A DNA stretch of 64,000 nucleotides from Albula goreensis (Eukaryota > Chordata > Actinopteri > Albuliformes > Albulidae). The number at the start of each line of letters is the position of its first letter. Position 1 is the first letter of the stretch. The stretch spans positions 24,030,602 to 24,094,601 of the forward strand of contig CM040760.1 in the NCBI GenBank assembly GCA_022829145.1, written 5' to 3'. The position numbers and the translations under genes were made by a program. This document shows positions 1,755-32,499 of the stretch, piece after piece. The notes below the pieces were generated by a model that saw only the letters and a list, made by a program, of their open reading frames with translations, did not search any database and had not been told where the DNA came from.

Positions 1755-1849
1755 CTAGGCTCCACCGCCGATGAGCCCAAGCCCCGCTAAAGCTAAGATG
1801 ATGACCCCAGCAGCAGCTCGCAATGACACAGAATGAGAGTATCCGGTCA
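1755..1849 (-). CDS. C-terminal hydrophobic exon (GPI-anchor-like signal) with stop codon
   Basis: The acceptor CCCACAACAG is followed, in phase 1, by codons for TGYSHSVSLRAAAG and then VIILALAGLGLIGGGA and TAG. The hydrophobic run reaches the last residue and no basic cytoplasmic anchor follows, which is the pattern of a GPI transamidation signal, with small residues before it as possible attachment sites. A tail-less transmembrane protein is the alternative. Confidence 0.65.
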
Positions 1850-4800
1850 CTGTTGTGGGCATGGAAAGGGAACACACCAGTGAAAATGGATCAACAAACT
1901 ATATTTACTCTTTACTATTTACTCTACACAACAGTGAAATCACAGCATGCATATGAAGTAAATGCTGAAAACACTTTCACTCATCAGTGTTTTACACACT
2001 TACATTAGCTGCAGGATGTGCCAATGTGAGTTTCTTGGTAAGGAAAAAAAGAACACATAACATACAAGAAAAGAATGTGTTCGGGGGTGCATACTGCATA
2101 GTAACTCTTTAGTATTCCAAATCAAGTATGAAACCAATGAAATGGATATAAATGGAGAAGATGCAACAAAGGTAAATATATAACCATTTATAGCATTAGA
2201 AAAATGAAAAAGGAACTTAAACAGGCTAAATTGCAACACAGGTTCTGTCATTGAATATGTAAAATACAGGTTATTCTAGAAAATAACAAAATTTAAAAAA
2301 TCAGCTGTAACTGTCTCACTTTTCACTTGCAGGTAGTGCTCGGCAGACACCTCCAGTCCAGTGACACCATTACTGGCTACACAGGTGTAATTCCCAGCAT
2401 CGTCAAGGGTGAATTTTTTTATGGTTAAAGTGCTTTCCTCTGCCCTCTTGGTTCCATTCAACAGCCATAAAAAGGTAGCAGGAGGTATAGATGCAGCGCT
2501 GCACTTTAACGTCACTGTTGCGTTGACCTCTGCTGTGCTTTCTCCTGGGTTTTCCCATTTATAACAACATCCTGTGGTCCGTCTGTAACAGAGCACAACC
2601 AACAAGTTTTACCATGAGTAATATGGCTCAAGGCAGCAGGCTAACTAGATAGGTAATTTTAACGAAACACTAGGCAGCTTTCTAAGCAGTTAGACAGCCT
2701 TATTAAATTGGGAGGATGTTGTCTCCTAGGTCCTCACACTGACATGTATTGGAAAGCATGCATTCAGTCTAGCGCGCAACAGTCAAAGGCACCCTCCAAT
2801 CATTTTTTTCCCTTAAAAACTGATCTCTTGTCAATAACAATAGGTGTCATATGTTTTTTTTTTTCCCCAGCAATATTTCAATTGAAACTATTATAATACT
2901 GCATTTAAAGATGCTCCACTTTTACACTCATCAACAGATTCAGGTCATGAATATTCAGTTAGAAACTTTACTTAACACTGCCCCAACCTCTGTTCCTGGG
3001 CTTGTAACTACCACAATGTTGAACCATTGTTGAACTACACCCAGCCAGCCTTGTACTCACAGTTTGACAGTCAGGGTGTAGCTGGCAGTGTCTGTGCTCA
3101 CAGGGTTGGAGAGCCTGCACTGGTATTCTCCATTATCAGAGCTCTCTACAGGGCTAATGGACACAGAGCTCTTGTCCTCAGAGAAGGTGATTCTGTTGCT
3201 AGGAGACAGAGGTTGATCACCCTTCAGCCACTCCCAGGAGATGCTGGTGCCAGCAGCTGCCTGACAGCTCAGGTTGGCAGAGCTGTTACCTGCTATCAGT
3301 GGTTCTGAGGGGCCAGTGATTTCAGCACCAGAGATCTTCTCTACAGACAGAGGAGAGAGGACAGGGTTACACACACTGTGCACAGTCAACTACCTATAAT
3401 ACTTCAAGGAAGAAGAAGCTCCATGTTATCCATGCCATGTTGACATCCTGTACATAGAAATGTGTTATGGGGAGATGCAGGTGTGCATATGTGTGTTCCT
3501 CTGTGTGCACTCACATGTGTCCACACAATCAGTCAACTCTAAGGCACCCTTGATAAAGATGAACAAAAAGGCTGTATAAAAAATAATATTGGTACTGGAA
3601 CATATTGTACATTCCCAGCATGTGGAATATATTGTACTTTATTAATGATTCAATGGAATCAAACAAAATACCACAGTTTTTCAAATTATACATTTCACAA
3701 TTATTGACACCCACATTTTAGTACTTGCGACCGCCTCTGATGACAAGGATAACATAAATTCACTTTTATGTAATATAATATGTTTAATGGGGTGGAGAAT
3801 TCATACACCATATACAACATCTCACCCAAAATAGTGAGGCATAACACTGCTCCCCTTAGACTCCAAGCACAAGATCAAATATCTGTACTGATATACTACT
3901 TATCATAGCACTCTTTTCAAACACACTCAATGTTGATATCCAGCATATAAAACTGGGGGATGAAAAATAGCGACTTCCTTACTACAAACATATCAATTAT
4001 GAAGCAACTATTGTATACAATCTATCATATCTTAATACATTATATTTATGCATCAAAACACTTGTGTATACACATCCCCCACACTGTAAAAAATGATTAA
4101 ATAAGTGTTGCACCATATTACTATTATTATTATTACTGTAAAGAAACAGTTTTTTTCTTCATGGTCCTCAGATTCTGCCATGGAGGTCAACAACTTGTGG
4201 CATGGACATACATCAGAGAAATTAAAAGGTAACGTGCATTGTGGGTACTATGCTAATTTGAATGAAGTGCAGTGTAGTGTCAAATATTTAATCATTTGAC
4301 CTTAAACAACCTGACAAAAACTATGGGAACCACAATTTTGAAACACGCTAAGGACCAATAAATTGGTGTCATGCTTTCTTTTACAGTACCTGTCATCATT
4401 TGTTCTCTATTTTATAAGTTCAAAAAAGTTATGCTATGAAAGACAACATTTCAGTATTTCATCCAGCCCCAAATTTAGCCAAACAGTAAATAAAATAATG
4501 GCTTAAGTTTACAGTGGTACGGTTTACAGTGTCTTTCCAGTTTGAGTAATTTCTAAGTTGCATGAAACTAGACAAACCAATTACTGTGTTCTCACTCTAC
4601 ACGTTCCATGTAGGTTCACTAGTCAGTAACTAAACTTAAGATGGATGAACCTAACAGGCCCATTACTGTAGCTATTTCAATTTATACTCACCATACACAT
4701 TAAGTACAGCGCTATCAGTCAGTGTTTCAGGTTTGCTTGTTATCAGGGTCACTGTGTATGTCCCGGTGTCTCCCAGTGTGATCTGTTTCAGCTCCAGAGA

Positions 4801-6594
4801 CCCAGTGAAGCTGTTCACACTGACTCTGCCCTCATACCCAGGTCCTTCATTGGCAACACCAGAGGAAACACTAATTACAAGTGCAGATCCAGAGCCACCA
4901 TCAAAATTCCAGATTATTGTTGGGATCGGTCCCTCTGAACTGATGATTGTGTTGAATGTTACATTCCCTCCTACTGCTCCATTCACAGGTCCCGGTGGTA
5001 GGACAGCATGACCAGAACAGAGGCCTGGAAGGGAATAAGGGAAGAATGTATGCATATGTACACATATGAAGAGTGAACCATCTCTACAAATTTGCAATAA
5101 TTTGAATAATAAACAAAAAACATAACCTCCCAATATTGGACTGATCAATGTTACAACGCATTGTTCTATATTGACTCTGTCCTGGCTGCTACCTTGGCCA
5201 GGTCTCTGTTGAAAAGGAGATTCTGGATCTCATTGAGGTTCATTCTGGTTAAATAAAGGTTAATGACTCGGTTTAAAACTTCTGTGCTTCCCTACCAAGC
5301 TGTTAAGGGGACACCCCAGCATATTGTCAAATGATTTTCAAAATCTGTATTCCTGCCAGACCTCTCCACTCTGCTTCCTGAGGACACCTGGTTTCGCTGC
5401 CTCATGTCTGCTGTCGTTTCTGACCATCTTCAAGCGCAGACTGAAGACTCATCTCTTCTGGATGCACTTCTCCCTGTCCTCTTTTACTCGGCCATATTTG
5501 TTCTATTTCATCTAGTGTTGTTGTTTTTTCCTCTACAGGTTTTTTTTTTTTTACAGGGTTCATCTCCAATACAATGTTGTCAATTCTGGAACTTGGGATT
5601 TCCCTCCAGGACTTTTGGCACTATTGTCCTATCTATAAATTTTGTGTTGTATGTTGCTGTGGATAAGAGTGTCTGATAAATATCTGCAATATAATGTATT
5701 GAATCTTCCAGTATAATCAAGGTTATTCTGTTTGTGAATTCTTCTGTGGACAGTAGTCAGTGACACATCCATGCCTACCCTGACAAGTGGTTTTGATCTG
5801 TTGGACACGTGTTTGGGGTTTTTTCATTTGTTATGGTGAGAATTCTTTGGCAACAACTGTAGAGGTCCTTCTTAGCTTATCAAGCCCTTTGTGATTACTG
5901 ATGTCACCAGTGCTCTCCTTCATCTTACTGAAGGCCCAAACTGTTAATTTTGGTAAGCCTAAGCTTACATAAACAAAAGAGACAAGAGAGAGATGAACTA
6001 GAAGTTCAAACCATCCATTTTAGTTGACTTAATACTTTTAAATTGACAGCATTTCATATGTGCCTGGAAGACTCAATTTGACCACAATTAACTCCTCATT
6101 CCTCAAAGAGGAAGCACATGCAGTTAGACCACAGGATGTGACTTAACCTTTACAGGACAAGCCATTTTAGACGACTTTGTCTAACCGTTTTAGAGATATT
6201 GTGTTCTCTTACAAACGAATTGCGTTGATCTTAGATTTAAAAAGATAATAAACATTACATTCTGCGATCAAGCAAGTGGTTAATATCCATTAAAATGTCA
6301 ACTTAGTTTCCATCGCTATATTTGACTCGTATTGAATAGTAGTAGTGAGTATACATTTCTTTCGACGGGACACTATTTCGACATATTCTACAATCATTTA
6401 ATGCACGGTAATTGCATATTCTACAATAATTTAATGTACGGCAATTGCTGAATAGCTAATCAAATCTGAAAATATTCAGCCATTGAAGTATACCAAAACC
6501 CGGAAACAAAATAAAAGCAAATTTGTCGAATAGTTGAAAGATATCTACCTGTAGTTAGAAGGACAACTGCAGTGAAGAACGCACCGGTCATCAT
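1755..6594 (-). CDS. CEACAM-like Ig receptor, tail-less (probable GPI-anchored form), 5 coding exons
   Basis: Seen: coding exons on the minus strand at 6594-6549, 5024-4692, 3340-3061, 2582-2320 and 1849-1755 join to one open frame of 339 codons including the TAG stop (338 aa). Order: signal peptide (MMTGAFFTAVVLLTT), V-type Ig domain (about residues 16-126), two C2/I-type Ig domains (127-307), and a C-terminal hydrophobic stretch ending IGGGA-stop with no cytoplasmic residues. Known: a cysteine-free N-terminal V domain followed by C2 domains is the CEACAM plan, and several mammalian CEACAMs are GPI-linked. Inferred: a GPI-anchored cell-surface adhesion or decoy receptor. Odd: exon 3 is 280 bp and exon 4 is 263 bp, so exon 3 leaves in phase 2 and about 15 residues after the junction are read out of the family frame. 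It could be a late-stage pseudogene, but no uncorrected stop is seen. Paired divergently with the plus-strand gene starting at 15045. Confidence 0.8.
2320..2582 (-). CDS. Membrane-proximal Ig domain exon, minus-strand gene
   Basis: Encodes VNATVTLKCSAAS, LWLLNGTKRAEESTL and DDAGNYTCVASNGVTGL, a C2-type domain. Acceptor CTGTTACAG, donor GAAAA/GTGAGA. In the ancestral phase the first codons would read YGPQDVVING, the usual CEACAM inter-domain start, but that frame soon hits a stop. Entry in phase 2, as supplied by the preceding exon, leads into the domain. The exon is 263 bp against 264 in the plus-strand paralogue. Confidence 0.75.
3061..3340 (-). CDS. C2/I-type Ig domain exon, minus-strand gene
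   Basis: Encodes EKISGAEITGPSEPLIAG, the B-strand LSCQAAAG, the C-strand WEWLKG and the F-strand DNGEYQCRLSNPVS: a canonical two-cysteine Ig domain. Acceptor CTGTCTGTAG, donor AAACT/GTGAGT. At 280 bp it is one base longer than a multiple of three. The extra base is near the 3' end (GTCAAACT here, GTAAACT in the plus-strand copy at 26341-26616). Confidence 0.82.
4692..5024 (-). CDS. V-type (CEACAM N-like) Ig domain exon, minus-strand gene
   Basis: A 333-bp exon, phase 1 in and out, with a CCTTCCAG acceptor and a TATG/GTGAGT donor. It encodes GLCSGHAVLPPGPVNGAVGG and continues to the conserved F-strand DTGTYTV and the ending LNVYG. It has no B/F-strand cysteine pair, as in CEACAM N domains. 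It differs from the plus-strand copy at 16786-17118 by about half a dozen bases in total, at least three of which change an amino acid. Confidence 0.88.
5320..5700 (+). mobile_element. Non-LTR (LINE-type) 3' remnant in intron 1 of the minus-strand gene
   Basis: A plus-strand reading gives FKRRLKTHLF, a phrase I recognise from repeated sequences in fish genomes, followed by an untranslated stretch and a 'gctgtggataagagtgtctgataaa' tail typical of fish LINE/SINE 3' ends. The clade (L2/CR1-like) is only a suggestion. Confidence 0.4.
6549..6594 (-). CDS. Signal-peptide exon of the minus-strand CEACAM-like gene
   Basis: Two adjacent ATGs (6594 and 6591 on the minus strand) open MMTGAFFTAVVLLTT, a short signal peptide. 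The exon ends in phase 1 at a CAG/GTAGAT donor, as in the plus-strand paralogue. No acceptor-linked upstream coding exon is needed. Confidence 0.75.
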
Positions 6595-7971: not shown

Positions 7972-7976
7972 ATACA

Positions 7977-8197
7977 TGTTCTAGTGTGGCTTTTGTATTC
8001 TGTTGCAGTTGAAGACCGATAGAGGGTGCACCTGTATTGGGTATCCAATGATTAGGCAGTGTGAGTGTGTGCAGTAAGGCATGCTAGATGGTACCAACAG
8101 GTTGGTCATGTGTGATGCCGTGATGGGTCCTGCAAATAAAGTGAGTTCCACTAAATATCTGTTCCACTTCTATTAATTGATATCCGACGATATCATA
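7977..8197 (+). repeat. 5' LTR of the Ty3/gypsy element
   Basis: Starts TGTT and aligns throughout with 12219-12434. It contains 'gcaaataaagtg', a possible polyadenylation signal, near 8132-8140. Confidence 0.88.
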
Positions 8198-8199
8198 TA

Positions 8200-8213
8200 T
8201 GGCGACGAGGATG
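8200..8213 (+). other. Primer binding site, tRNA-Ser type
   Basis: TGGCGACGAGGATG starts two bases after the 5' LTR and is complementary to CCA plus the 3' end of a vertebrate tRNA-Ser(GCT), as I recall that sequence. Confidence 0.7.
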
Positions 8214-8363
8214 AAAGCCTGAAGTGATCAAGTTATGACTACGGGTGCACTGCTGGCTGAGTTAACAAGTGACCTGAAGCTAGGTTAGTGCTAACAGTCT
8301 GTGAACTATAGACGTTGTGCCGACAGCTTGAAGAAAGCTGGGCGCTCTCTGTAGTGAAGAACC

Positions 8364-9095
8364 ATGGCTGCCACGGTGGGGTCGGTGTCTCCTTTTGATA
8401 GCAAGTCACAGACTTGGGAAGAGTACTGCGAGATTTTGGACCACTTCTTCGTGGCGAATGACTCTGACAATGAAGAAAACAACCGAGCTGTGCTGGTAAG
8501 TGGCGTGGGCGCGCAGACATATGCACTGATGAGAAACCTGCTCAGCCCCGAAAAACCGGGAGATAAGTCATACAGTGACCTGGTAAGACTGTTGAGGAAT
8601 CATTTTCACCCTAAACCCAGTGAAATAATGCAACGATGGAAGTTCAATACAAGAAACAGAAAGTCTGACGAGACTGTGGGTGACTATGTGGCAGAGCTGA
8701 GAAAGCTAGCGCAGGACTGTAATTATGGGGGATCTTTGACGGTGATGCTGAGAGACCATCTCGTGTGCGGTATAAATGGCGACAGGATTCAGCGGAGGCT
8801 ACTGTCGGAGGATGGATTGACTTTTGACAAAGCCCTCAAGTTTGCACAGGCCATGGAGGCGGCAAACAGACACATTGTTGACTTGCATGGCATGAAAGAG
8901 CAGGGCAAATGCCGTGCAGCGCTCTGTCAACAAGGTGAACGATGCGCGTTAAAACCTCAGCGGGACATGAGGAAATGTTACAAATGTGGCGGAGACAGCC
9001 ATTTGGCTAAGGACTGCAGGGTTGCCAACGAGATGTGCCACAGTTGTTGTAAAGTGGGACACATAAAGAGGGCCTACATGATGAAACCAGGGTGA
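8364..9095 (+). mobile_element. gag region of the Ty3/gypsy fossil
   Basis: Encodes a retrotransposon capsid-type protein opening MAATVGSVSPFDSKSQTWEE, with a central SDETVGDYVAELRKLA block typical of Ty3/gypsy Gag and a C-terminal zinc knuckle (CYKCGGDSHLAKDC). Confidence 0.85.
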
Positions 9096-9153
9096 AAGGA
9101 AAAGTCTAAGCACCTTAAAAGGGAGAAATGCAGGCAAGGACAAAGCTCATTTC

Positions 9154-9620
9154 ATGCAAGAGGAAGGGGGTGATGGTGATAGTGAGGATGTTTCCACTAT
9201 GTATCACATGAAGGACAGTGTAATGACCATGTACAACATAAATGAAGAGATAGTCATTCCCAGAGAAGAGCCTATAAAAAAAGAATTAAAAGTCAATGGG
9301 AAAAATGTAACCTATGAGGTAGATACAGGCTGTGGGTACACCATTATGTCAAAGAGGGCATTTCACAAGCTTTTCAGTGATAGTGACCCAGACTAGCCAA
9401 GTGCAGGATAAAACTGAGAACATATGGTGGCCATAAAGTGCCCAAGCGACAAAGGTCAAAGTTGAACACAAAGGCATTGCTAAGATGTTAGCAGTAGTGG
9501 TTGTCAAAGGTTCGGGAACAAGTCTACTGGGATGAGGTTGGCTTAAAGCTCGCAAAGTGGACTGGCAACCTGTACATAAGATAGAGGACAGAGAAAACAC
9601 CCTACAGGAAGTACTTTCAA
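9154..9620 (+). mobile_element. Protease region of the Ty3/gypsy fossil
   Basis: An aspartic-protease-type active-site phrase (VDTGCGYTIMS) lies near 9319-9351, just downstream of gag. The remainder of the region is degraded. Confidence 0.65.
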
Positions 9621-9631
9621 GGCATTAAGCA

Positions 9632-10640
9632 GTGTTCAAAGCAGAGCTTGGGATGTTAAAAGGCTTCACTGCAAAAACACATGTAGCTAGTGATGCCACA
9701 CCCTGTTTCTATAAGCCAAGGTCAGTGCCTTTTGCAATGAAAAAGAAAGTAGAGCAAGAGATAAAGGCTCTTAGAAGAGAAAATCATAGAGCCAGTGAAG
9801 TTCTCAGAATGGGCTGCACCCATTGTACCAGTCTTAAAACCAGGCTCCAGAGAGAGAATTTGTGGGGAGTATTAACTCACAGTAAACAAAGTGTCACCTA
9901 TTGAGCAGTACCCCATTCCAAAAATTGAGGACATGATAGCCTGTCTAACAGGAGGAGAGACATATACCAAGTTAGATATGAGCCATGCATATCAGCAGAT
10001 TGTACTGGATGAGGAATCATGAAAATATGTCACAGTGAACACACATAAGGGACTGTTCACATATACCTTTTGGGGTGAACTCCAGCCCAGCCATCTTTCA
10101 GCATACCATGGAGGGTGTGCTGCAGCGATTGGCAGATGTCACAGTGTATGTTGGACGACATTATTCTAACAGGAAAAGATAATAAAGATCACCCGCAAAC
10201 ACTAGATCAAGTACTGCAGCAATTGGATGATGCAGGACTTCACTTAAAGAGGAGCAAGTGTGAGTTTATGGAGACAGAAGTGACATTTTTATGACATCGA
10301 GTGGACAAGGCAGGGTTGCATCCCTTGCTAACAAAGGTGAAAGCTGTTCAGGAGGCCCCCACTCCCACATCAGTAACAGAGCTAAAAGCTTATTTGGGAC
10401 TGTTGAACTTCTACAATAAGTTCCTGCCAAACCTGTCGACATTACTGGCACCTATGCACAAATTGTTGAGGAAGGATGAACTGTGGTCTTGGGGACCTGA
10501 GCAAAAAAAATCTTTCAAGCAATCAAAAGAACTTTTGCAATCCATATGTATAGAGCAGGTAAAAACAATGGTAATGCTGACGCTCTTAGTCGTCTCCCAC
10601 TTCCAGAGGCACCAAGTGTTTAAGCACCAGAGGAACATGT
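9632..10640 (+). mobile_element. Reverse transcriptase and RNase H region of the Ty3/gypsy fossil
   Basis: Recognisable pieces include the palm-domain phrase YTKLDMSHAYQQIVLD (about 9964-10011) and the connection-domain block LKAYLGLLNFYNKFLPNLS (about 10381-10437). The region is degraded. Confidence 0.75.
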
Positions 10641-10872
10641 GTTAATGTTGGAGCAGGAGCATCCACCACTGATCACTTCAGAACAGCTTAAAAAATGGAC
10701 AGCTAAGGATCCTATACTCTCACGAGTACATGAGTATGTGCTGAGAGGATGGCCAAAGAATCAGGACAGAGACTTTGTACCTTACCAACAAAGACAACAT
10801 GAGCTGAGTGTACAGGATGGCTGTGTGCTGTGGGGAGCCCGCATTGTGATACCGGATAGGGGATGAGCTCCC

Positions 10873-11754
10873 ATGATGGAAAAGTTACACCAGTCACATC
10901 CGGGAATGAGCTGCATGAAAGGCCTGGCACGAAGTTACTTGTGGTGGCCACACATGGACAATGACATAGAGAATAAGGTAAAGTTATGCTCCACATGCCA
11001 AGAACACAGAGAGGCACCTGCTTGCGCACCACTCCACCCCTGGGAGTCGCCTGAGAAGCCATGGAGGAAGCTCCACATAGATTATGCAGGTCCCTTTATG
11101 GATAAAATGTTCTTAGTCATTGTGTATGCACACTCAAAGTGGTTAGATGTATATCCAGTAACATCAGCTACAGCCAACACACTAAATTGCTTGAGAAACA
11201 GTTTCAGCACACATGGTATCCCACTAATGATTGTGTCTGACAATGCTCAGTGTTTTGTCAGTGAACAAACCAAAGATTTCTTTACACAAAATGGAATCAC
11301 ACATGTCACATCAGCACCGTACCACCCTTCATCCAACGGCTTGGCAGAAAGGGCCGTACAGACTTTTAAAGAACTCATGAAAAAGAGCAGCGGTGACACA
11401 TTGGAGACAAGGTTAAATAGGGCTCTGTTTAGCTATCGCATACCTCCACAGTCAACTAATGGACTTTCACCTGCCAAGATGATGATGGGTCGGAAGTTGA
11501 GGTGTACACTGGATCTCATACACCCCAATTTGAGACAAAAGGTTGAGTCCAAACAAGCAAGCCAAAACAAACATGCAGAAGAGTGCAACCTTGTAGCAGG
11601 AGACTCTATCTATACCAAAAACTATGGATGTGGACCTAAATGGGTACCAGGACTGATACAGGAGATCACGGGACCAGTTTCTTACACAGTGCTTCTGGGA
11701 AATGGTAAAGGTGTCAGGAGACTCGTAGATCAACTGTTCAGCAGACAGGAGTAA
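10873..11754 (+). mobile_element. Integrase region of the Ty3/gypsy fossil
   Basis: Shows an N-terminal HHCC zinc-binding module (HQSHPG ... CSTCQ), a catalytic core (DYAGPF, VSDNAQCF, SSNGLAERAVQTFKE) and a C-terminal basic region. It is the longest open piece of pol in this element. Confidence 0.85.
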
Positions 11755-21000: not shown

Positions 21001-24000
21001 GGGAGGGTCAGGAGCTCAAGCTGGAGAATGTTCAGAAGAATCAGAGCGGCAGTTATATCTGCTGGGCTCATAACAGCATAACACTGAGGTACACGGCATC
21101 TAAACCCTCAATGATCACTGTCTTAGGTAAGTCAGAGGAACGTACACACCACTGAGGGGGTAGAGACAGATGTCATGAGCATGTGGGACGATGTTTAAAT
21201 CAAAAAGCATCGCTGAGATACTCACAACAAGAGATGCTCAAACTAAATCTGATGTAGCATCTAGACAAGCATGCATTTGTTTTTGCAAAAGGCTGCCTGT
21301 AAGTTTGCTGGTGCACTCAGGTTTCTGAGGGTGGATTTGGTTGGCCCAGAAAAGGTTGGCAATGTCTAAGTTCATTGCAGAAGAACCCTCACAGTCCCAT
21401 AAAACTGATTTATTAGATGTTGTAACTCACAGTTGGTTTAATAGCAATGAGCAGATATGAAGTTGGGCAGTTTCATGCCGCAGTAGAGAAAGAATTTGTT
21501 GGGCTGTTGGTTTTAGCTTGAAATTTGAGGTTCATGTTTTTTGGCATAAGTCAATAAACTAAGCAGCTTGAGGGGATGTGCTGCTACAAATCAGCCACAT
21601 GAATTAATTTAACAATTAATTAATCATACTTTGCTGATCTGATTTACCAGAAAAGACATTTTTGCCACTTTTGCTGTTGAGGTGGTGTATGAAAATGACC
21701 TCTGTCCCTGTTGTATTGCATTGTATTGCTATACTGTAGTAGACAATAGTCCAAGAATGATACATCTTATTGACATAACAATAGATTTGATTATTAAATA
21801 TCCATAGGTATACTTATATGCAAATGAAGCAGCAACATTTGATTGTTGTAATCTTTGGAAGCTAAGTCAAAAATGAAATATATCAAATTACTGACAATCC
21901 TAGTGATCTTCAGTTTTATAGTTATGATGTCATAGTTTGGAGCCTGACAGGTGAGGCTCATTGTGACATGGTACTGGGAGCTCTGCTTGGGTACTTATTC
22001 ACAGACATTGGCCACTGCTGCTGTTAGAACACCATGTACTCCTGGTGCATGAGAGGACACTGTTGACAAACCATTTAAGGTCAAAGGTCACAGTGAGGTG
22101 AGCCGTTGTTCTGTGAGAGTTTTTCAGCCTTGCTTTTTGGGATATTTATAAACTCACTGTTTTGAATAACAGTTACGTTGATGTGCTGGAGGCAATAGAG
22201 AATTTAGCAGTCCTGAAAGGCAGAGGGAGAGTAAACATTTCCTCAAATATTTTTGTTTCTCAATATCCTTCCTGTTGTGTCCAACACAGAGCTCTTCCTC
22301 TGGTGAAGTTTAAATGCAACAGTCAAATTACTCTTAACTAAAATGACTTATTAGATGCACTACTTAATAGACAATGACGACTCCTGCCATCAGTCATTTA
22401 GTTGACAGTACAACACTGTCCACTGGCTGTTTGTTTTAATTTAGACAAGAGGTCATTCATCTAGGGAGCAGAGCAATAATTCTGTTTTTTGTTTCATCAC
22501 ATAAATCCACACTCAGTGCCATTTTCAGTAATTTCTATTTCAAGTAATTAGTCCTGTGAACACTTCTAGTCGTGTCGCTGGTGGCAGCATCCATTACAAA
22601 CAGACACTGCTACTAGAAATTAATTTCCTAACTAGAAGTTAATTTCCTTATTATTCAGCCATGCTTCTTCCTTGTAGGTATAGCATTTCTCCTGCCATTT
22701 CAAAGGGCATGGATGCTGTGATTTTGATGCAGAGGAGGTTCAAACTTGGGTATCTAAGATCCACAATAGGATCAGCAGAACCCTGAATGTCTGCAGATTA
22801 TTATAATGTGACATACAATCTTAACATTTTTATTTGGTTTGCATAAAGGCTGTTAGTTGTCGCTGTCAGATATTGTTGCAGTGCATTTAATTAGCAGAGG
22901 TAATTTTCTATGTGAACTAGTTTCCATAGTGATTAAAAATTGCTCAGTAATGCTGTACACAGACTCACACAGAGTCTGTACAGTACACAGAGACAATGTG
23001 GCTTAGTGGAGACCCAATAACACTGTTCTTCTAACAGAAGTTTGACCCAGAAAAGTTTGGCAGTGTTGATATTTATTACAGAAGTAACCAGCAGAGACTT
23101 AAGTAAACCAGACAGTTGTCTTATTAGCAAAGACCATACCTAAAGTTGAACAGCATTGTGCCATAGTGAGACAATATTTTGCCTTCCTCACAGTCATATT
23201 CATTTCCTCATGCATAGTTATTCAGACAGTGGCCGCTCCTGCAGTTAGGCAGGGGCCTATGTGTTTTGCATGAGGCATCACTGTTGACATAAGGTTTGAG
23301 AAAAAGTGTCTTACTTGTTAGATACACATTTAGGGGAAATTCATTGCATTCTTACTTTAGATTGGCATAATGTTTCATTAGATTTTAGATGAATTAAGTA
23401 AATAAAATCACTGAGGTTTGATGAACAACAAGGTTTAATTACCTGGCATACAATTTCTTTCATAGTGATCTATCACTGAACGATAAATATTGCTTGATTC
23501 ATATTTTATATTTTATTGAGGTATCTAAGGTGAATAATGAATTTGCTCTAGAGTTACTTTTACTTGACCTGATTACATCTGTATTGGCATATGGTAAATC
23601 AAGAGATCTGTGAGTTAATTTCCATAGGTTCATAGAAGTTACAAAATAAAACTAGAAAAGCGTTAATCAGTCTACATTCATTTGAGATGTGTGGATTGAG
23701 GAAAACAGACAGAAACACAGCTCTGCATTTCAAATAAAAAGCAACTTAATTATTAGCGATGGTAAGGGCAAGCGCCCTGCAAATCTGCTTAGCCAAGGTC
23801 TGAATTTGCTTACAGGGTATTTTCATGAGAAATGCCCTGATTTATAGTTATTGAAGAGGTTCAAGGTCAGAATACGAACAGACACTGAGAAGGCGCATAG
23901 CAGGTCAAAAAAGCACTTAGGTCATGCTGAGCACAGGTCTGAATAGACCTGTTAATGCAGAGCTCTTATTCCTTTTAAGACTAAGCACATTATCCAGGAT

Positions 24001-27000
24001 CGATGTGCAACATAAAGGTTAAATAAAACTGTTTTGAATGAATTTTCTTGATTATTAGGTGTTTTATTAATGTTAACAGTCCATTGGCAGGTAATCTTTA
24101 GTTTTCTATGGGTCACTGTTGCATTCTTCTTCCACTTAATTATGCAAAGAAACTTACTGAAAGACAAGAAAACTAATTCTAATTTAAATTATTTGCTTCA
24201 CTTAAAAGGTACATTCTTCCATTATATGCATAATGTGCTTCTGTCAAAACAAACTTTGGCGCTTTCATCACTCAGAGGAGAAAGGACCTCTATGCTGTTA
24301 TGACAAATAACTATTACAGATGTAAATACTGGCACATTAGTGAGCACAGTTATGAGCTGTGATGTAATTACTTATCCATCTGTGTGCCTGTACAGGCATT
24401 GAGTTGTAAATTGAGATACAATAGTCACATATAGTATGTAGTTATTCAGGTCTGAGGAAGTCCAAAGTGTATTGTTTCAACTCAGAGTCACAATTTACAC
24501 TATGTCAGTTAATTGATAAAACAGCTAGTTAATAATAAACAAAGGTTAAATGAGCTGAAATGCAAAAGAAGGTTTTACAATGTCAGAAAAGTTGCAAGAA
24601 CAGTGCTTCACATTCCAGCCATAAGTGACAGTTGTTCTAGATCCAGTTATTAAGGAAATGACCATGAGCAAAATTTAGTACTCAGCAATGATTGACTGCT
24701 GTTTGTAACTGCACAGTGAACAAATGCAAAAATAAAGTAGAAATTATGAATCATAACCTCATTAATAAGTTAAGCAGTAAAGGCATGAGTCATGTCTGAT
24801 TGGTCCTTTTAGACAGTCTACCTATGAATGGTGCATTTGTCAATAGACAAAAAAAAAAAAAAAAACTCCTTTCCATATATTTATGCTTACATATGGGAAG
24901 GAGTTTGATAACTCATTTATACTGGTAACAAGCTAGCTGTGTGTGTGTGTGTGTGTTTGAATGCATTGTGTATGGATAATTATTCTGGCTGTCGAGCCAT
25001 AGATGTGGATTTGTGAAAGGGCTGCTAGGTTTACACAAGAATCGCTTTGATGTTCTACATGTAATCTAAGGGAGGGCTGGTCTCTGGCACTCAGTGAAGA
25101 ATTTCATGAATCAGAACCTGTTTCCCCCCACCGGTGCTCACCCTATTGTATACACTTCCTCCTCTGTAACTTTGTCAGGATCAGTACAACTGTGATATAC
25201 ATGAGGCCATTCAACATTGACATTCCTCTGTAAGTGCCCTCGTGTCACTGTTCAGACAAGATGACAGCCATCTGAGTTCTTACATTGCATTTCATATCAA
25301 GGCATTTGGTAGGTGCCTTTATTCAGTGTGGATAACAAAGCTTACAGTTTTTGAATGCAATGTATGTGAGCAGAGGCGACAGGCATTCAACAGGTACTCC
25401 TATCCAACAGACCTATTACAGACAATTTCTTAAGATGGGAATCAAACCTGCAACCCCTGTGCTACATGGCCAGCTCCCTAATGATTTTACTACAGTGCCA
25501 CATACTATACTAATTTCTATACAATGTATAGGACCTGGATAATATAAATTTGTACTTAATAATTCATCTTGAGTACCTGGAAACCTACTTGTAAGCCCTC
25601 AGGTACAAGGCCAGTTCCCCAACCATTACACTGCATTAATTATTGATAAACGTATTGTTAATATGTTACAAATAACACAAACCAAAATGACAAAATACAG
25701 GTAATCACTTAATGCCATTGATAAGGAATTAACTTGCATGGTAAATTGCTCATTTTAAAAGTAAAACTGATTTAAGGCTATGAAATGGATTCTCATTTTT
25801 AGCTTCAATGCTTTATTTTCTTTGCTGACACAATTCAAGTGAGTTTCATGACTGAATTTATGACAGGTTTTATAACTCTTTTTATTGTATTTGTTTCATT
25901 GTGTCAACACTTACATGCAAGCTGCTGTTGTAGTGCATAATGTTGATTTGGAGGAATAATTAAATGTAATATATAAAAATAAACTATGAGCTCGACAGAT
26001 CATCAATACCCACCATTTGTTGGCATTATCCTGGTGCCATTCACATTTCAACAGTTTCTACTATTCAAAATCCAGTAAAGAACACTTAGCACTGGAAACA
26101 TTCAATTTTGGAACCTTAATACTGAGTGACCCAGATCAAAGGAAATTAATAACAGAAATTCTGACTTTTTTTGTATTCATTAGAGCCACAGTTCTTACTC
26201 AGCATGCAAAATTTCATTATTTATTTTTAGTTTTTTTGTGGTGAATGAGAAAAATTCTGTATCTTCAGTGCAACAAGAGTTGGAGAAAACTGGTATTCCA
26301 GTCTTTGTGTAACCCTAACCTCTCTCCTCTGTCTGTAGAGAAGATTCTGGTGCTGAAATCACTGGCCCCTCAGAAACACTGATAGCAGGTAACAGCTCTG
26401 CCAACCTGAGCTGTCAGGCAGCTGCTGGCACCAGCATCTCCAGGGAGTGGCTGAAGGGTGATCAACCTCTGTCTCCTAGCAACAGAATCACCTTCTCTGA
26501 GGACAAGAGCTCTGTGTCCATTAGCCCTGTAGAGAGCTCTGATAATGGAGAATACCAGTGCAGGCTCTCCAACCCTGTGAGCACAGACACTGCCAGCTAC
26601 AGCCTGATTGTAAACTGTGAGTAAAGGACTGGGGGGCTGGACTAAACTGTAAGCACTTTGATCACATTTTCATGCTGTATTTGTACATTTGAAATCTACT
26701 GAAATACTCTGTGGGTTAGTGGTTTTCACTGTGTCTCACCCAAGAACCCAAAGCAAGTGCACACATCTGTCATGGCTGTGATTGGTCACCAGCTGTCTAT
26801 GCTTTATCCACATCACACACACACACACACAAACACTTCTGACAGCCCCCTGCAGAGAGCTCTGCTCTGATTGGTTGTGCTCTGTGTTACAGATGGACCA
26901 GAGGATGTTCTCATTGAAGGAGTCACTGAGGTGGAAGTGGGCAAAATGGTGAAGTTGATCTGCTCTGCATTATCAGAACCCCCTGCCAGAATCACATGGT

Positions 27001-30000
27001 CACTAAATGGGACAGAGACCAACGTTATGACAGCTCAGTACATTAAAGACAATGTCACCTATGATGACAGCGGGGATTACACCTGTGTGGCTGAGAATGC
27101 AGTGACTGGATTAAGCAGTTCCTCTGCTGTCCATGTGTTGACTGTCAGAAAGGAAGGTGAGTTTTGTAGAAATTACTAAGTTTTGAAAAATCAAACAAAA
27201 CTATAAATCATAACATGTACCTCACTGGCACTAATTAAAAGACATAACTCTTTTTTTTTCAAAGAGATAAGATAGCAGTATCCCTTGAAAAAATAAAACC
27301 ACATTGATTCTTCACAAATGTGTCTTTGCACATCTCACATGTGAAATGCATGTGATTTTTCCATACAGGATTATTAATAGTATCTGGGATGTCCTGAGTG
27401 GAATATGTATGAATGAATCAGGGTATCTTCTCATATTCCCCTTGAAAGCCATCTGCAGTTGCACTTAGACTGGTTTCACTGAAGCGCCTGTACATCAGAC
27501 AAAAACTAAAATAATGACATGATTTTACAGGGGTGAGACTTGTAATTGATTAATATAATTTTAAATCCAAAATTCCTGGTTCTGTGTCTTATTTACAACT
27601 ACAAAACATGATAAATTAAACTTTATTAACATCAACTTGAATAAAATTTTTCACTCACTTTATTTTGTGACACTACAGTTAAATTGGTAATCGGAAGATC
27701 ATAAAAAGAAAAACTTGGTACAAGACATGTTGCACATGCTTAGTTCTGCTGTAATTAGTTTTTCGTCCCCGTTTACTGTGTTCCTGCAGGTTCCCTACCT
27801 GACAACGGGCCAAATGTTGGGGCTATTGTTGGCGGTGTGATTGGCGGTCTGGGGTGTGCAGGACTGGCTGCAGCTGGAGCAGTCTTCTATATGAAGAAGA
27901 AACAGAAGTGAGCACATTGGGTCTTTTTTGGCTGTGTTCACATTGGCAGTTTGAAGTGACTGAAATCAGCTTTACAGCACAAATTTGATTGAAAATGAAG
28001 GATTATACCATTGGTATGCCCACATAACATTCCATGCATATGGTTATGGGTGGAATACAAAAATCCTATGATTACAGGTAGAAGTCAAATATCAGTTTCA
28101 TAGAAGTGCTGGAAGTCACGTAGTGTTTTGCAAAACCGCCCTGTTACTGGATACCTTTTCCTGGTTCAGTGGTCATTTCAGCAGAAAGTAGATCTGTCTG
28201 TACATCTCATTAAATTACGAGAACACAAACATGTGGGGGATCAATAATGAAATCTGTTAAAGGGCAGGGGGGCTGGGGGGCATGCCAACCATTCTGTTGG
28301 ACCCTTCTGATGCTCATGTGGGACCTTGAGTGAAAATTTAATTTCCCTGTATTTTTATGTGCTTTGTGAAAATGCAATGAATGTGCAAACTAACACAAAG
28401 CACTCCTTGTATTGGGTGAGGGATTGTAGATGGTAACAATTTCCCCTAGAATATATATGAAACTAATGTATCATACTGGAGCTATAAACCAAGAATTAAT
28501 GCTATTTGAGTTTATATAATATCAGAGAACTCAAACATTGTTTTAAACTCATACTGCATGGCACCTTTCCAAATAGACAATCCCAGTGTATCCGGAAAAT
28601 TAAAATTTCTGGTAAATGGAAGATTTGACTTTTAACACACCTTCCAGTCAGTCTTATCTTTTAACAGATTAGCAGTTCTGTGCCGGGATGTAATTAACTT
28701 GACAGTTAATGATTGACTACAGTGCGGCTGAGCAGTGGTTTGTGTGACTCAGGCTGCCACATGCACCAGTGAAACACTGCTGAGAGCCTGTTTTGTGAAG
28801 AAAACAGAGAAGCAGCAGAGGAGCAACTGATTTAGAGTCATCCTTAAGGCTTAATTTTAGTATAGTATAACAGTTAGAGAACTTGGATTGTAATTTAATT
28901 CAGAGCTTGCAGGTGTAGTTCCCAGGTGAGGGAGGGGCTGTGGTTTTACCTTTGAGCAAGGTACTTCACCTTTATTGCCTCAGTAAATGTCTACCTGTAC
29001 AAATATGTCACAGTTGCCAAAGGCTTGGATAGATGGGTAATGCAGGAAATGTTAGCAATGTTAGTTACTCTGAATCAGAGGTCTAGCAAACCTCAGGCTT
29101 TTGCAATCAGGTCAAAATGTGGGGGAATTCCAGTCTCCCACTCCAGTTTGCGATAAGATCAAGTGGCTTAAATTAATTAGAATCACATTTTTAGTGCAAG
29201 TCCCTGCCCTGTAACCAGAAATGTTGAGGGTTCATTTTCAGAAAAAAACAATAATGCTTGTTTGCCTTTATTACATTCACTTCAACTAATAGTGATCTAT
29301 CAGGGGAACTAGCTACAGGGCATGAAAACTCAAACAGCGTTTCCCTCTAGAATTTGGTATAAAATGTCCAGTCCTGAATGTGCCAACCATATCGTGCCTA
29401 GTAGTAGTCAACTTAAGGGCTCTGAGATGTGTGCATTTTTCATGTTCTTTAATCACACCTGAGTTTATGGCATGGACCTTTGTTCTTTCATGGTGTTTGC
29501 GCTCTGAAAGTATCTGCTGCTTCCATCCACAAGAGTTTGAATAACCAAATCAGGGGCTTGGTTTTCAGTTAGACAATTGGCAGGGAAAATGCATAGAACC
29601 TCTTGGTGAAGAAATAAAAATACAGCAAGGGAAGAAGAAGGGGCTGTGTAAACAGGCACAGCTCTTGTAGTTTTCCTAAAATTTCGCATAGATAATCCAG
29701 AGGAAACATGGTATGCAAAATGTTAATTTACATCGAAAGTAACAAGAAAGGAACTAGAGATGCAGCTCACAAGGAATTTTTTCAATTATAAAGACTCTGC
29801 ACATGACTACGTAAACAGTAATGGTGTCATATTAAACTTGAAAATGTTTTCTTAGCAATACAATATTTACAAATAGTGAAATATGTTAATTCATCTTTTT
29901 TAAAAATTTTATTTTATAGACAAAATTCAAAAAAGCCTTGATGGTTTTAAACTGGGATGTCTATTGCAGATAAGCATAATCCTAGTCAGCAGTGGCTGAC

Positions 30001-31122
30001 TTCTTCATTTTAAAGGTTTTGTTGCCATATGGTAAAAGACTCATTCCCAGTATGACTTGCAACATGGCAGTGAAATTATGATTACTCTCAGGTCTTTTTT
30101 ATTTCCAAATTCACATAGCTTAGATCAGAAATTCTACAACACTAAGGCTCCCTTTTCATTGCAAATTTTCATTGATCATGTTAGCTTTACATTGAGACAA
30201 GCCTTAAAAAGACTACTGTCTGTTTGATTGAATTGCATATACCTTTAAAGAGACCGAGGGCCAGATATTCCATAGCATTTAGTATGTACACTACTGCTTT
30301 GCTGGTGCAAAAAGACAAAGAGAGTGTGTGATTGGTTGAGGCAGTTAGTTTGCTCCAATCCCAAATCATGTCCATGACTGAGGTAGTTGGTTTGCTCCAA
30401 TCACAAATTGCATCAATGATGGAGGTAGTTGGTTTGCTCCAATCACAAATCATGTCTCTGAAATTGCTTGAAAAGAATGTACTATCTGGCACTATAAGGC
30501 CACTGATGAACCTGGCCCAAGTGTGTTTGACTGTGTGTAGTACGGAGAGCTTAAACATGACAGATGTTTCAATGTTTACACAGGCCCAGATCTTCCACAA
30601 ACGGCCATGCTGGAAGCAGTGAGTATTGCTCTTTCTTACTTCACTCTTCTACATGTGTGTGGCTTTTTATGCAACACATGCTTCTGAACACCTCTCTCTG
30701 CTTATATACACACACACAGTATAAAGTATAGAGTATTTTAGGGGTGATTGACAGTAAAAAAGGGAAGAAACAGCCGTGTTTAGTCTGAGAGCTGTTATGT
30801 TTGCTGTACACTGTGGTGGTAAGGTCGGTGCCCAGACAACAGTGTTTGGTCACAGGGAACAGGGCCCAGAATGCTCGTCATTCAGAACTGTCTGCCAGAG
30901 TGTGAGCTATGCCCCGACCAACCTCTGCCCAATTTCCGCTCCCTTCTCCTGCATACAGACCCTTCTCACACACTCCCTTCACACAGCTACCACTGTTTCC
31001 CAGCATAGACACAGACACACATACACACACACTGTAGCATTTGCTAACATGCACAAACGTGCACACAAACATTAGCACATTCACACACACACAAGCACAC
31101 ACAACCTATGACTACCAACAGT

Positions 31123-31221
<99 letters not shown>

Positions 31222-32499
31222 ACCCGAGACGGCCAGCAGTCCTCACGGTGCCACCCAAAGCTTGGCACCAGCTGGCAGACAGTGACTGTTGGGTGAGTCA
31301 CTGTGAATGGGAGCAATGTCAGGCAAAAATATTGAAATAGTGAGGCACTCTTTCTACGCAGCGCTGGTGGCTTCTGTTTGTTTAGTCTGCCTGACCCTTT
31401 GCTGCACACAAACGGACATTAAAAAGGCTTCAAGGGGAGAGCTTGTTTACAGTGCAGAACCTGATAGCCAAATGACCAATTTCAGGGAAATGTAAATGTC
31501 CCTCAGTAGGACCTGCAGTCAAGATTCAGGAAGCTGATACGGTGGCATATCGCTCATGTGACAGCAAACAATGCATGGAATGATGAAAGTTCACCTTGTG
31601 GAATTATGCACCACTAGATAAAACCAATATGCAGGAACTGAATAACCAGGTCAGTGGGAGTGAGTTTAAACCTCTGCCCGCTTAATCAGTCAGCCACATC
31701 CTTGTCTTGAGGAACAGACAGGAACATGCAGCCAGGATAGACACATTCCTGTCCGATTAACTGTCACTGAGATTCATGTTCACACCTGAAAATGTCAAAA
31801 TCATGAATTAATATGTTAGGGTAAAATGGTGCCTGGAGGCACTTAAGCAATGTAGGAATTATTTCTACCTGGATCCCTTCTTGTGAAAAATGAATAAGAA
31901 TTACTATTTTGTCAATAACTGCCATTCCCCTTATGTTGTTACAGCATCAAATCAGGCTAACTCGCCGGATCAGGTAAGCCTCTGGATATTTAAAAATTAC
32001 AAAAGAATAAAACATGAAAAAATAAAATAACAAATAATAAAGCTGTTGTAGTCATATATTTAAAAGGGAAAAGCTAAATTTGTAATCACTTTGACTCCAG
32101 ATGGGGCAAAATGGAATTTTGCAATAGGTAAAGAATTATGGTTAGGAAGCTGGCAACTTGAGGTTACTGGTTTAAATTGCAGGTAGAGTTTTGGTGTGCC
32201 CTTGAGCAAGGAGCTCTAGCTGAATTGCATCCATAAAATATCCAGCTACAGAAAAGAATGCAAGAAAGTTTGAATCAATCAGACAGCATCTGGTAACTTC
32301 ATTTATATAGTCTGATAAATCCCCCCCCCTTTTATAGATTACCTACGCAGATGTCAGCGTTTTTAAGAAAAAGGACGGTGGCACAGTTGAGCTTGGAACC
32401 CCAGACACTGTGTACACTGATGTCAGAACCAACCTGGGCCGGGCCCAGGCAACCACGGTTCCTGAAGAGACCCAGTATGCCATGGTCAAAAATAAATGA
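15045..32499 (+). CDS. ceacam1-like: CEACAM1-like inhibitory receptor: five Ig domains, TM, ITIM/ITSM tail, 10 exons
   Basis: Seen: exons 15045-15087, 16786-17118, 18743-19021, 20860-21126, 26341-26616, 26893-27156, 27790-27907, 30584-30618, 31945-31973 and 32338-32499 join to 602 codons including TGA (about 601 aa). Residues: signal peptide 1-14, V domain without cysteines 15-125, Ig domains 126-218, 219-307, 308-399 and 400-487, TM exon 488-527, tail 528-601 with Y551 (ITYADV), Y574 (TVYTDV) and Y595 (TQYAMV). Known: this is the CEACAM1 plan; phosphorylated ITIM/ITSM recruit SH2 phosphatases such as SHP-1/2 and SH2 adaptors. Inferred: inhibitory adhesion receptor of leukocytes or epithelia. 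Odd: exon 5 has a one-base deletion next to its acceptor and stays in frame only if the second AG of TAGAG is used. Tail exons 8 and 9 are 35 and 29 bp. Strict orthology to mammalian CEACAM1 is not claimed. Confidence 0.85.
16786..17118 (+). CDS. ceacam1-like: Exon 2: V-type (CEACAM N-like) Ig domain
   Basis: A 333-bp phase 1-1 exon between CTTCTCTTCAG and TATG/GTGAGT. Cysteine-free V domain with VNGAVGGNVTF, RVSVNSFTGSLELKQITLGD and DTGTYTV. Near-identical to the exon at 4692-5024 on the minus strand. Confidence 0.9.
18743..19021 (+). CDS. ceacam1-like: Exon 3: Ig domain
   Basis: A 279-bp phase 1-1 exon: PVSNVTVSANATNLVELN, VSLTCSASG, LSYQWRNGSSDITAG, SILTISSVLRSDRGPLYC. Both Ig cysteines and the core Trp are present, with several N-glycosylation sequons. 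Acceptor AACCCACAG, donor AGCT/GTGAGT. Confidence 0.9.
20860..21126 (+). CDS. ceacam1-like: Exon 4: Ig domain
   Basis: A 267-bp phase 1-1 exon beginning (Y)GPENVMMTVDPLSDFY, with INLSCSAQSSPPAQFQW, and NQSGSYICWAHNS. Acceptor GTGTTGTAG, donor TTAG/GTAAGT. A typical CEACAM A-type domain start (YGPE). Confidence 0.88.
21340..23300 (+). repeat. Diverged internal duplication in intron 4 of the plus-strand CEACAM-like gene
   Basis: Segments near 21340-21490 and 23040-23180 share the order of short blocks (CCCAGAAAAG.TTGGCA, ATT.CAGAAG, GTTGGTTTAATAGCAA / GTTGTCTTATTAGCAA, AAGTTG.GCAG). About 21990-22080 resembles 23215-23300. No Ig exon remains between them. The rest of the ~5.2 kb intron shows no gene. 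Confidence 0.4.
25270..25640 (-). mobile_element. tRNA-derived SINE fragments, minus orientation
   Basis: The tail block ('ggtaggtgcctttattcagtgtggataac') lies left of tRNA-like box B and box A in reverse (GGAATCAAACC, then ACTACAGTGCCAC). A second, shorter head fragment follows at about 25570-25640. Confidence 0.5.
26341..26616 (+). CDS. ceacam1-like: Exon 5: Ig domain with shifted acceptor
   Basis: Encodes DSGAEITGPSETLIAGNSSA, LSCQAAAG, EWLKGDQPLSPSNRITF and DNGEYQCRLSNPVS. Compared with the minus-strand copy it lacks one base (AAGATTCTGG against AAGATCTCTGG). Starting at 26339 would shift the frame into an early stop; starting at 26341, after the second AG of TAGAG, keeps phase 1 and gives 276 bp. 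Confidence 0.72.
26893..27156 (+). CDS. ceacam1-like: Exon 6: Ig domain
   Basis: A 264-bp phase 1-1 exon: (Y)GPEDVLIEGVTEVEVG, KLICSALSEPPARITWSLNG, DDSGDYTCVAENAVTGL. Acceptor GTTACAG, donor GGAAG/GTGAGT. Confidence 0.9.
27790..27907 (+). CDS. ceacam1-like: Exon 7: transmembrane segment
   Basis: Reads GSLPDNGPNV, then a ~24-residue hydrophobic, glycine-rich span (GAIVGGVIGGLGCAGLAAAG and AVFY) stopped by MKKKQK. The basic stop-transfer fits a type I membrane protein. It enters in phase 1 and leaves in phase 2. Confidence 0.85.
28858..29065 (+). mobile_element. tRNA-derived SINE (V-SINE-like body) in intron 7
   Basis: A degenerate tRNA head (AGTATAACAGTTAGAGAACTTGG ... GTGTAGTTCCCAGG) is followed by a CTTTGAGCAAGGTACTTCACC core, a hallmark of a widespread fish SINE body. 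Confidence 0.6.
30338..30463. repeat. 42-bp tandem repeat, three units, in intron 7
   Basis: Three diverged copies of GAGGTAGTTGGTTTGCTCCA plus 22 bases are arranged head to tail, just upstream of the small cytoplasmic exon 8. The unit is a multiple of three, so both strands stay open without being coding. Confidence 0.75.
30584..30618 (+). CDS. ceacam1-like: Exon 8: small cytoplasmic exon
   Basis: A 35-bp exon between TTTACACAG and AGCA/GTGAGT. In phase 2 it gives PRSSTNGHAGS. Its length converts phase 2 to phase 1, which the next exon requires; skipping it would run exon 9 into a stop after a few codons. Confidence 0.6.
31124..31219. repeat. (CA)48 microsatellite
   Basis: An uninterrupted CA dinucleotide run of 96 bases in intron 8, preceded by a CA-rich degenerate region. 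Confidence 0.97.
31945..31973 (+). CDS. ceacam1-like: Exon 9: small cytoplasmic exon
   Basis: A 29-bp exon (ACAG acceptor, CAG/GTAAGC donor) giving SNQANSPDQ in the chosen phase and leaving in phase 0. Confidence 0.65.
32140..32256 (+). mobile_element. SINE fragment in intron 9
   Basis: Contains a TTAAATTGCAGGTAG box-B-like segment and a CCCTTGAGCAAGGAGCT core, then ATCCAGCTACAG, as in the other SINEs of this window. Confidence 0.5.
32338..32499 (+). CDS. ceacam1-like: Exon 10: ITIM and ITSM cytoplasmic exon, stop codon
   Basis: Opens ITYADVSVF directly after a CCCCCTTTTATAG acceptor (ITIM), then PDTVYTDVRTN and PEETQYAMVKNK before TGA. The last two fit the switch motif TxYxxV. There are 53 codons plus stop, and no methionine near the start. 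Confidence 0.82.
   Translation: MTYADVSVFKKKDGGTVELGTPDTVYTDVRTNLGRAQATTVPEETQYAMVKNK

Follow-up and report, generated by a model that had tools for sequence, protein, structure and literature searches.

A head-to-head pair of CEACAM genes in a bonefish: an inhibitory receptor and a tail-less relative with almost the same N exon

The window analysed here, 64,000 nt of the genome of the bonefish Albula goreensis, contains a head-to-head pair of CEACAM genes: a CEACAM1-like receptor with immunoreceptor tyrosine-based inhibitory motifs (ITIMs) on the plus strand and a tail-less relative on the minus strand. The pair spans 1755..32499, its ends being the stop codons of the minus-strand gene (1757-1755) and the plus-strand gene (32497-32499), exactly the limits given by an earlier sequence-only reading of this DNA, and the divergent arrangement described there was borne out by the start codons at 6594 (-) and 15045 (+), with 8,451 bp between them. 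Open frames and splice signals served to place the exons, which were then joined (Table 1); every intron of both gene models has GT-AG ends, and the window contains no undetermined bases (N). The two public gene models at the locus are fragments: AGOR_G00212090 (P0121, 225 aa) is 100% identical to the signal peptide, N and A of the minus gene and stops at the end of exon A, while AGOR_G00212100 begins just before exon A of the plus gene, without its N, C2a and C2b exons, and matches it at 100% over A and B and at 98%, with a 2-residue gap, over the transmembrane (TM) segment and tail.

The plus gene is laid out as N-C2-C2-A-B, followed by a TM exon and three cytoplasmic exons, the last of which (32338..32499) contains the ITYADV, TVYTDV and TQYAMV motifs named in the sequence-only reading; these fit by pattern the consensus of ITIMs and immunoreceptor tyrosine-based switch motifs (ITSMs). 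The minus gene is laid out as N-A-B and a membrane exon in an open frame of 338 codons, and its protein ends in SHSVSLRAAAGVIILALAGLGLIGGGA and a stop, a hydrophobic run with no charged residue after it, just as that reading had described a hydrophobic stretch without a cytoplasmic tail. Searches by tblastn with a set of 217 proteins (E up to 1e-3) found no further Ig exons in 21.2-26.3 kb and 5.1-6.5 kb and no cytoplasmic exons of the minus gene in 1-1750; the scan of 1-1750 recovers the last ITIM exon of the plus gene but misses its 29-nt, TM and signal-peptide exons, so that only a long ITIM-type exon is excluded there, and the window stops at position 1. Further downstream in the minus gene, a candidate exon (994-954) is in frame after exon B, and the model JZ751_028227 of Albula glossodonta (genes of this species are cited below by their last six digits) has a near-identical end.

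Three exons carry one-base flaws. Exon A of the plus gene measures 278 nt, one base short of the 279 needed for phase 1, and its frame survives either if A is skipped (507 aa) or if splicing uses an acceptor 2 nt further on, at 26341 (599 aa), which is preceded by G, a poor splice context. Exon A of the minus gene measures 280 nt, one base too long, and an opposite shift within exon B restores the frame; where Albula relatives read YGPQDVVING, the start of minus exon B carries about 13 odd residues. Either assembly error or real indels may account for the flaws in plus A, minus A and minus B.

Table 1. Positions of the exons and other features of the gene pair in the window
Feature	Position	Strand	Remark
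Minus downstream exon candidate	954..994	-	3' untranslated region of the anchored form, or unanchored end SSSSIQVVLTTVL-stop if joined to exon B
Minus membrane/GPI-signal-like exon, coding part to TAG	1755..1849	-	Exon continues to donor at 1743
Minus IgC2 exon B, tail-less type	2320..2582	-	Frame differs from that of homologs over first ~13 residues
Minus IgC2 exon A, 280 nt	3061..3340	-	Extra base at 3' end
Minus N (IgV) exon	4692..5024	-	Probably the converted one; 98.2% identical to plus N exon
Minus signal-peptide exon (MMTGAFFTAVVLLTT)	6549..6594	-	90% over 20 aa to A. glossodonta JZ751_028227
Gag-pol-type long terminal repeat (LTR) retrotransposon, gag- and pol-like frames	~7976..12432	+	Between the two start codons
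Plus signal-peptide exon (MDMRLFALVLLSIV)	15045..15087	+	Phase 1 out; 94% over 18 aa to A. glossodonta JZ751_028603 signal peptide
Plus N (IgV) exon	16786..17118	+	98.2% identical to 4692-5024 (-)
Plus IgC2 exon 1 (C2a)	18743..19021	+	No counterpart found in minus gene
Plus IgC2 exon 2 (C2b)	20860..21126	+	No counterpart found in minus gene
Plus IgC2 exon A, 278 nt	26339..26616	+	Annotated near start of AGOR_G00212100
Plus IgC2 exon B	26893..27156	+	
Plus TM exon	27790..27907	+	Ends in FYMKKKQ
Plus cytoplasmic exon 1	30590..30618	+	In-frame alternative acceptor 6 nt upstream; AGOR_G00212100 has KPRSSTNG there
Plus cytoplasmic exon 2	31945..31973	+	
Plus last exon, ITYADV / TVYTDV / TQYAMV	32338..32499	+	100% to AGOR_G00212100 over 53 aa

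Membership in the CEACAM family was indicated by domain structure and by the closest relatives of the whole protein. In both genes the N-terminal IgV domain precedes IgC2 domains of the A/B type, each on an exon of its own (V-set and Ig_3/I-set hits), and neither mature N domain contains a cysteine; CEACAM N domains lack the canonical Ig cysteine pair. The top four Protein Data Bank matches of the whole plus protein are to CEA, CEACAM1 and CEACAM6 (E 1e-91 to 4e-43), and many fish relatives are named CEACAM1/5/6/20-like, others being called hypothetical, hemicentin-1-like or titin (among the best 120 of 237, and 114, matches listed). Searched by sequence on its own, the N domain retrieves Roundabout first (E 2e-5) and CEACAM6 sixth. 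The structural model of the plus N domain has an IgV-type fold (predicted local distance difference test 92.2, predicted template modelling score 0.85, 36-row alignment); Foldseek ranked the human CEACAM1 N domain first for it (E 1.3e-7), and VIA-align placed JAML and other IgV domains first without singling out CEACAM.

The two genes share their N exon almost base for base. The exons differ at 6 of 333 bases (98.2% identity; blastn E = 3e-171), three of these changes alter amino acids, and the mature domains are identical at 103 of 106 residues (97.2%), the three differences agreeing with the few residues by which the sequence-only reading had set the V-type domains apart. Exon by exon, the DNA identity of plus and minus is 98.2% for N, 97.9% for A, 58.3% for B, 50.0% for the signal peptide and 45.8% for TM. 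The similarity around the N exon ends at the splice signals: the 300-bp blocks flanking it reach scores of 4.0 and 2.0, where shuffled sequences average 4.2 and 4.8. A nucleotide comparison of 1-7900 with 12501-34000, the stretch between being left out, gave blastn matches of 351 columns at 97.7% around N and 329 columns at 96.7% around A, together with three short ones: one of 39 columns where exon B begins and two, of 38 and 40 columns, close to the retrotransposon. Synonymous and non-synonymous divergence (dS/dN) were 0.035/0.012 for the N exon, with 3 synonymous changes per 86.7 sites, and 0/0.020 for exon A. The LTRs of the retrotransposon are 92.7% identical, with 12 mismatches and 4 gap positions in 220 columns, and thus differ at 5.6% of ungapped bases (12 of 216); the divergence of the N exons is lower (1.8%; dS 3.5%), and therefore, at equal rates, the event that made them alike would post-date the insertion. 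No closer N twin was found by an N-only protein search (region 16-125 of the 507-aa query), which gave 8 proteins among 497 candidates with lengths within 0.55-1.75 of the query.

The likeness of exon A (97.9% identity; no synonymous and 4 non-synonymous changes) is of another kind. In 13 of 14 other Albula proteins compared, the A domains are 84-99% alike to those of the window (AGOR_G00212150, 43%), so it is not specific to the pair, and a pair-specific conversion of exon A was dropped as a candidate. The 300-bp block upstream of exon A scores 16.5 against a shuffle value of 4.0 (sd 2.2) because about 35 bp adjoining the exon are shared.

Trees of the single domains placed the two genes in different company. 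The signal peptide of the plus gene goes with that of A. glossodonta 028603 (94% of 18 aa) and that of the minus gene with 028227 (90% of 20 aa). In the N tree (18 rows), by contrast, the two window genes were joined with support 100/99, adjoining A. glossodonta 028603 and 028287, and forcing the minus N together with the N of 028227, its signal-peptide ortholog, was rejected (approximately unbiased (AU) test, P=1.5e-5). In the B tree (24 rows), minus B fell with 028227, 028228, 028289 and A. goreensis 212070 (support 97/99), while the fork that joins plus B to A. glossodonta 028225 is not a strong one (84/86); forcing the two B domains together was rejected (AU test, P=1.4e-42). The deeper forks of the B tree are unsure because of long end branches (028229, Cco_short, Gja_ITIM, Aaf_ITIM and Mcy_short). 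We read this conflict between the N tree and the B and signal-peptide placements, together with the exon-limited identity, as gene conversion of the N exon, and it appears close to certain from these comparisons that the exon is shared in this way. In A. glossodonta, the ITIM gene 028603 has an N that the minus N matches at 74%, against 55% for the N of 028227. This speaks for the ITIM gene as the donor; the copying probably ran from it to the tail-less gene.

The tail-less end has a history of its own. An end of the form SHSVSLRA(A/T)AG(V/I)(I/V)ILALAGLGLIGGG(A/P)-stop recurs in A. glossodonta 028228 and 028289 and in A. goreensis 212070, and its conservation in these three further Albula genes argues that it is not a local sequencing accident; among the five Albula genes compared that have the tail-less B type, the minus gene included, four end tail-less and the model of 028227 skips the membrane exon. 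The nearest B-type relatives outside Albula among 33 proteins compared, from the eel Conger (P0137, ending in GLIGGGGFFAYKKLF) and the tarpon Megalops (P0053, ending in GALGVGGFFVWKKFF), retain a short tail with lysines, and we infer that the tail-less end arose by loss of these lysines and a new stop. Within 1743-1757, the minus TAG is followed by the codons L and V and then by TGA. This sequence resembles the end of the Conger tail (LF and a stop) and may be a relic of the lost tail. The small residues G310, S312 and S314 lie at omega-like positions of the minus protein by a hand-made omega-site rule, the omega-like triplets starting 24-28 residues before its last residue, and the end is uncharged, hydrophobic and rich in glycine. 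By such sequence features alone (early stop, hydrophobic end, no charged tail) the minus gene would be classed as a CEACAM of the glycosylphosphatidylinositol (GPI) type, and its product is probably GPI-anchored. Since the tail-less chassis sits in a separate fish lineage, its origin is very probably independent of those of the primate and pig GPI-CEACAMs.

Taken together, the reading we favour, and consider reasonably likely, is that two head-to-head CEACAM genes of different lineages came to share a recently converted N exon, giving an ITIM receptor and a non-signalling, probably GPI-anchored twin. The inverted arrangement would allow the N exons of the two genes to pair; one of the two N exons, most likely that of the ITIM gene, would recently have been copied over the other, and with introns too dissimilar for pairing the tract would not reach beyond the exon. 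The outcome would be two surface proteins with one binding face, one signalling inhibition and the other unable to signal. The tail-less twin would compete for or trap the ligand of the ITIM receptor's N domain, whether a microbial adhesin or a self-ligand, or alternatively engage that N domain in trans. A putative role as non-signalling twin or decoy is plausible, and the pair resembles known receptor/decoy pairs. As in paired receptors, the ligand domains are nearly identical and kept alike by recombination; opposite signalling (ITIM versus immunoreceptor tyrosine-based activation motif, ITAM) is absent, the minus product having no tail, which makes the pair twin- or decoy-like rather than a classical activating pair. 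A gene outside the window but in the same gene-number series, AGOR_G00212040 (P0064), encodes a CEACAM with an ITAM-like YEELQFKHSETYCNF tail, which in the N domain resembles the plus gene at 65-66%.

Several points weigh against this reading. Decay of the genes, or errors of assembly, could lie behind the single-base indels of plus A, minus A and minus B; the direction of conversion is not firmly rooted because the model of 028225, the A. glossodonta gene with the B domain closest to that of the plus gene, contains no N exon; and GPI anchoring was judged by the hand-made rule rather than by a trained predictor. Of the three residue differences between the N domains, one falls in the B-C loop (codon 28), one in the C''-D loop (codon 64) and one in the F strand (codon 92), the strands being labelled by us on the model. 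The difference at codon 92, Asn/Thr, aligns with position 89 (Gln) of human CEACAM1, presumably a binding-face residue, and binding of the two N domains may therefore already differ.

Among the alternatives, it is unlikely, but deserves some weight, that the minus gene is a pseudogene or bystander, its conversion a neutral by-product of inverted repeats and its frame shifts marks of decay. The one-base insertion in minus exon A with the opposite shift in exon B would suit this, as would the ending of AGOR_G00212090 at exon A and the family-wide likeness of A domains, by which conversion may be frequent in the cluster; against it, the compensating shifts leave one open frame with GT-AG sites, three other Albula genes have the tail-less end at the same place, and the like flaw in the ITIM-bearing plus gene points to assembly error or tolerated exons. 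We think it improbable that the minus product, instead of being GPI-anchored, crosses the membrane once without a tail or is secreted when exon B is spliced to 994-954: the in-frame junction giving SSSSIQVVLTTVL-stop, the corresponding end of the 028227 model and the glycine-rich hydrophobic run are consistent with such a product, and they stand against the lack of charged stop-transfer residues, the placing of the omega-like triplets and the lysine-keeping Conger and Megalops relatives, which represent the TM state.

A recent whole-gene duplication was ruled out by the low signal-peptide, B and TM identity, the shuffle-level introns and the tree conflict. The variant in which a recent inverted duplicate diverged fast in introns and other exons while purifying selection held N is very improbable: the genes are indeed inverted, adjacent and of one family, with both N exons open and spliced alike, but the synonymous sites of N are nearly unchanged beside introns at shuffle level, and signal peptides and B exons from different lineages, shared with A. 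glossodonta, contradict it. That the N-exon identity is an assembly artefact is hardly credible, since the identical block is bounded on both sides by dissimilar DNA, the copies differ at 6 bases and the window has no N; nothing direct favours it, though three one-base indels are present.

The conversion reading can be set beside known systems. In Xenopus, N-exon conversion between oppositely oriented ceacam genes is restricted to the exon and its splice signals (PMC5112662). The Xenopus tropicalis sets ceacam301/ceacam303 and ceacam350/351/368 resemble the bonefish pair in their near-identical N exons, poorly conserved introns, inverted orientation and one ITIM/ITSM partner; the partner compared with ceacam301, however, has an ITAM-like motif, whereas the bonefish partner is tail-less and its host a teleost (PMC5112662). 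CEACAM N-exon conversion has been published for amphibians, reptiles and mammals. According to the Xenopus report, of 2016, the question of paired receptors had yet to be taken up for fish and the other newly found clades, and within the open-licence PMC literature, as far as its text was available, we found no report of CEACAM gene conversion in fish. Fish CEACAMs have been inventoried (PMC3628338, PMC4079198), and CEACAM synteny with LIPE, CNFN, PAFAH1B3, ATP1A3 and TOMM40 has been described (PMC3628338). Pig CEACAM60 has a stop in its TM exon, is released by phosphatidylinositol-specific phospholipase C (PI-PLC) and underwent N conversion with CEACAM1 (PMC13212111). Like the bonefish pair, CEACAM60 and CEACAM1 thus combine a stop-cut membrane exon, a tail-less product and N-exon conversion with an ITIM receptor; unlike it, the pig anchor exon derives from a CEACAM1-type TM exon and anchoring is backed by PI-PLC release, whereas the bonefish anchor exon comes from the separate short-tail lineage and its GPI anchor is predicted (PMC13212111). 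Human CEACAM5-CEACAM8, relatives of CEACAM1, also owe a GPI-type end to stop codons in TM exons, and trapping and shedding have been suggested as defence; these genes, by contrast, are primate and arose from ITIM-associated TM exons, and CEA and CEACAM6 bind neisserial pathogens (PMC2832619).

Zebrafish CEACAMz1 is likewise a teleost CEACAM with a predicted GPI anchor, but it has eleven Ig domains and is an ionocyte marker, and the available text mentions no ITIM twin with the same N (PMC8274849). Turtle CEACAM1-like genes without ITIM exons give a non-signalling CEACAM1 twin that was proposed as a decoy, but have a single IgV domain and TM-exon read-through, in a reptile; the same report on reptile twins lists conversion for amphibians, primates and other mammals (PMC13278318). 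The suggestion of the sequence-only reading that a paired or decoy system evolved independently in fish thus stands in part: an ITIM receptor and a tail-less relative do share N, in inverted order, through a derived exon-limited event and in a separate lineage, but layout and mechanism are not new in kind, given Xenopus (PMC5112662). The pair is a fish case of known exon-limited conversion (Xenopus) and of stop-codon GPI CEACAMs (primates, pig), with its own twist. The route seems different, a pre-existing short-tail lineage having received the ITIM gene's N exon, while the primate and pig GPI members mutated an ITIM-type TM exon. If true, the bonefish pair would add a further origin of tail-less CEACAMs and, being a fish example whose partner has no tail, bring teleosts into the receptor/decoy arms race; it would offer two proteins with nearly the same binding face but different signalling.

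The sister species offers a second N-twin pair, A. glossodonta 028603 (P0006, ITIM) and 028287 (P0125), which are 94-95% alike in N, 83% in A and 42% in the signal peptide; both models are partial and neither has a clear membrane segment. An identity of 65% first computed for the rest of these proteins mixed unlike domains of partial models and was replaced by the A-to-A value. In Conger, ITIM and ITAM-like proteins are 88-90% identical in N and 95% over the whole ectodomain, so that their likeness is not exon-limited. A scan for N twins found an N-like domain in 181 of the 217 proteins, and 177 domains of at least 80 aa, two of them those of the window, were kept; it listed many pairs at 84% or above, most of the 13 hand-picked ones being isoforms, alleles or whole-ectodomain duplicates, and was not used as a rate of sharing. 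Pairs from Acnodon, Garra, Scleropages, Chanos, Salvelinus, Epinephelus and Conger were as alike in their other parts as in N, which counts against a general rule of exon-limited sharing. The Acnodon genes AOLI_G00042650 and AOLI_G00042660 (P0081, P0141), with consecutive numbers, have nearly the same signal peptide, N, A and B, with ITIM-like motifs in one and a different tail in the other. A wider reading, towards which we are tentative and slightly doubtful, is that in elopomorphs the inhibitory receptor's N has repeatedly been shared with a species-specific chassis, the tail-less form having arisen when a short-tail lineage lost two lysines and gained a new stop, as a recurrent modular decoy system of independent teleost origin. 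In A. goreensis the partner would be the tail-less gene and in A. glossodonta a different one; in Conger it would be an ITAM-like gene, which there shares the whole ectodomain.

Elsewhere in the window, further Ig-type exons lie on the plus strand in 42131-63614 (at 42131, 50149, 55081, 55527, 56493, 57118, 57489, 62581 and 63285). They are 30-39% identical to fish multi-Ig CEACAM-like proteins (tblastn) and represent one or more separate divergent genes, perhaps running past the end of the window. Among these exons lies a minisatellite (46091-47155) with a 48-bp unit in 22.2 copies at 94% matches, which is open in several frames.

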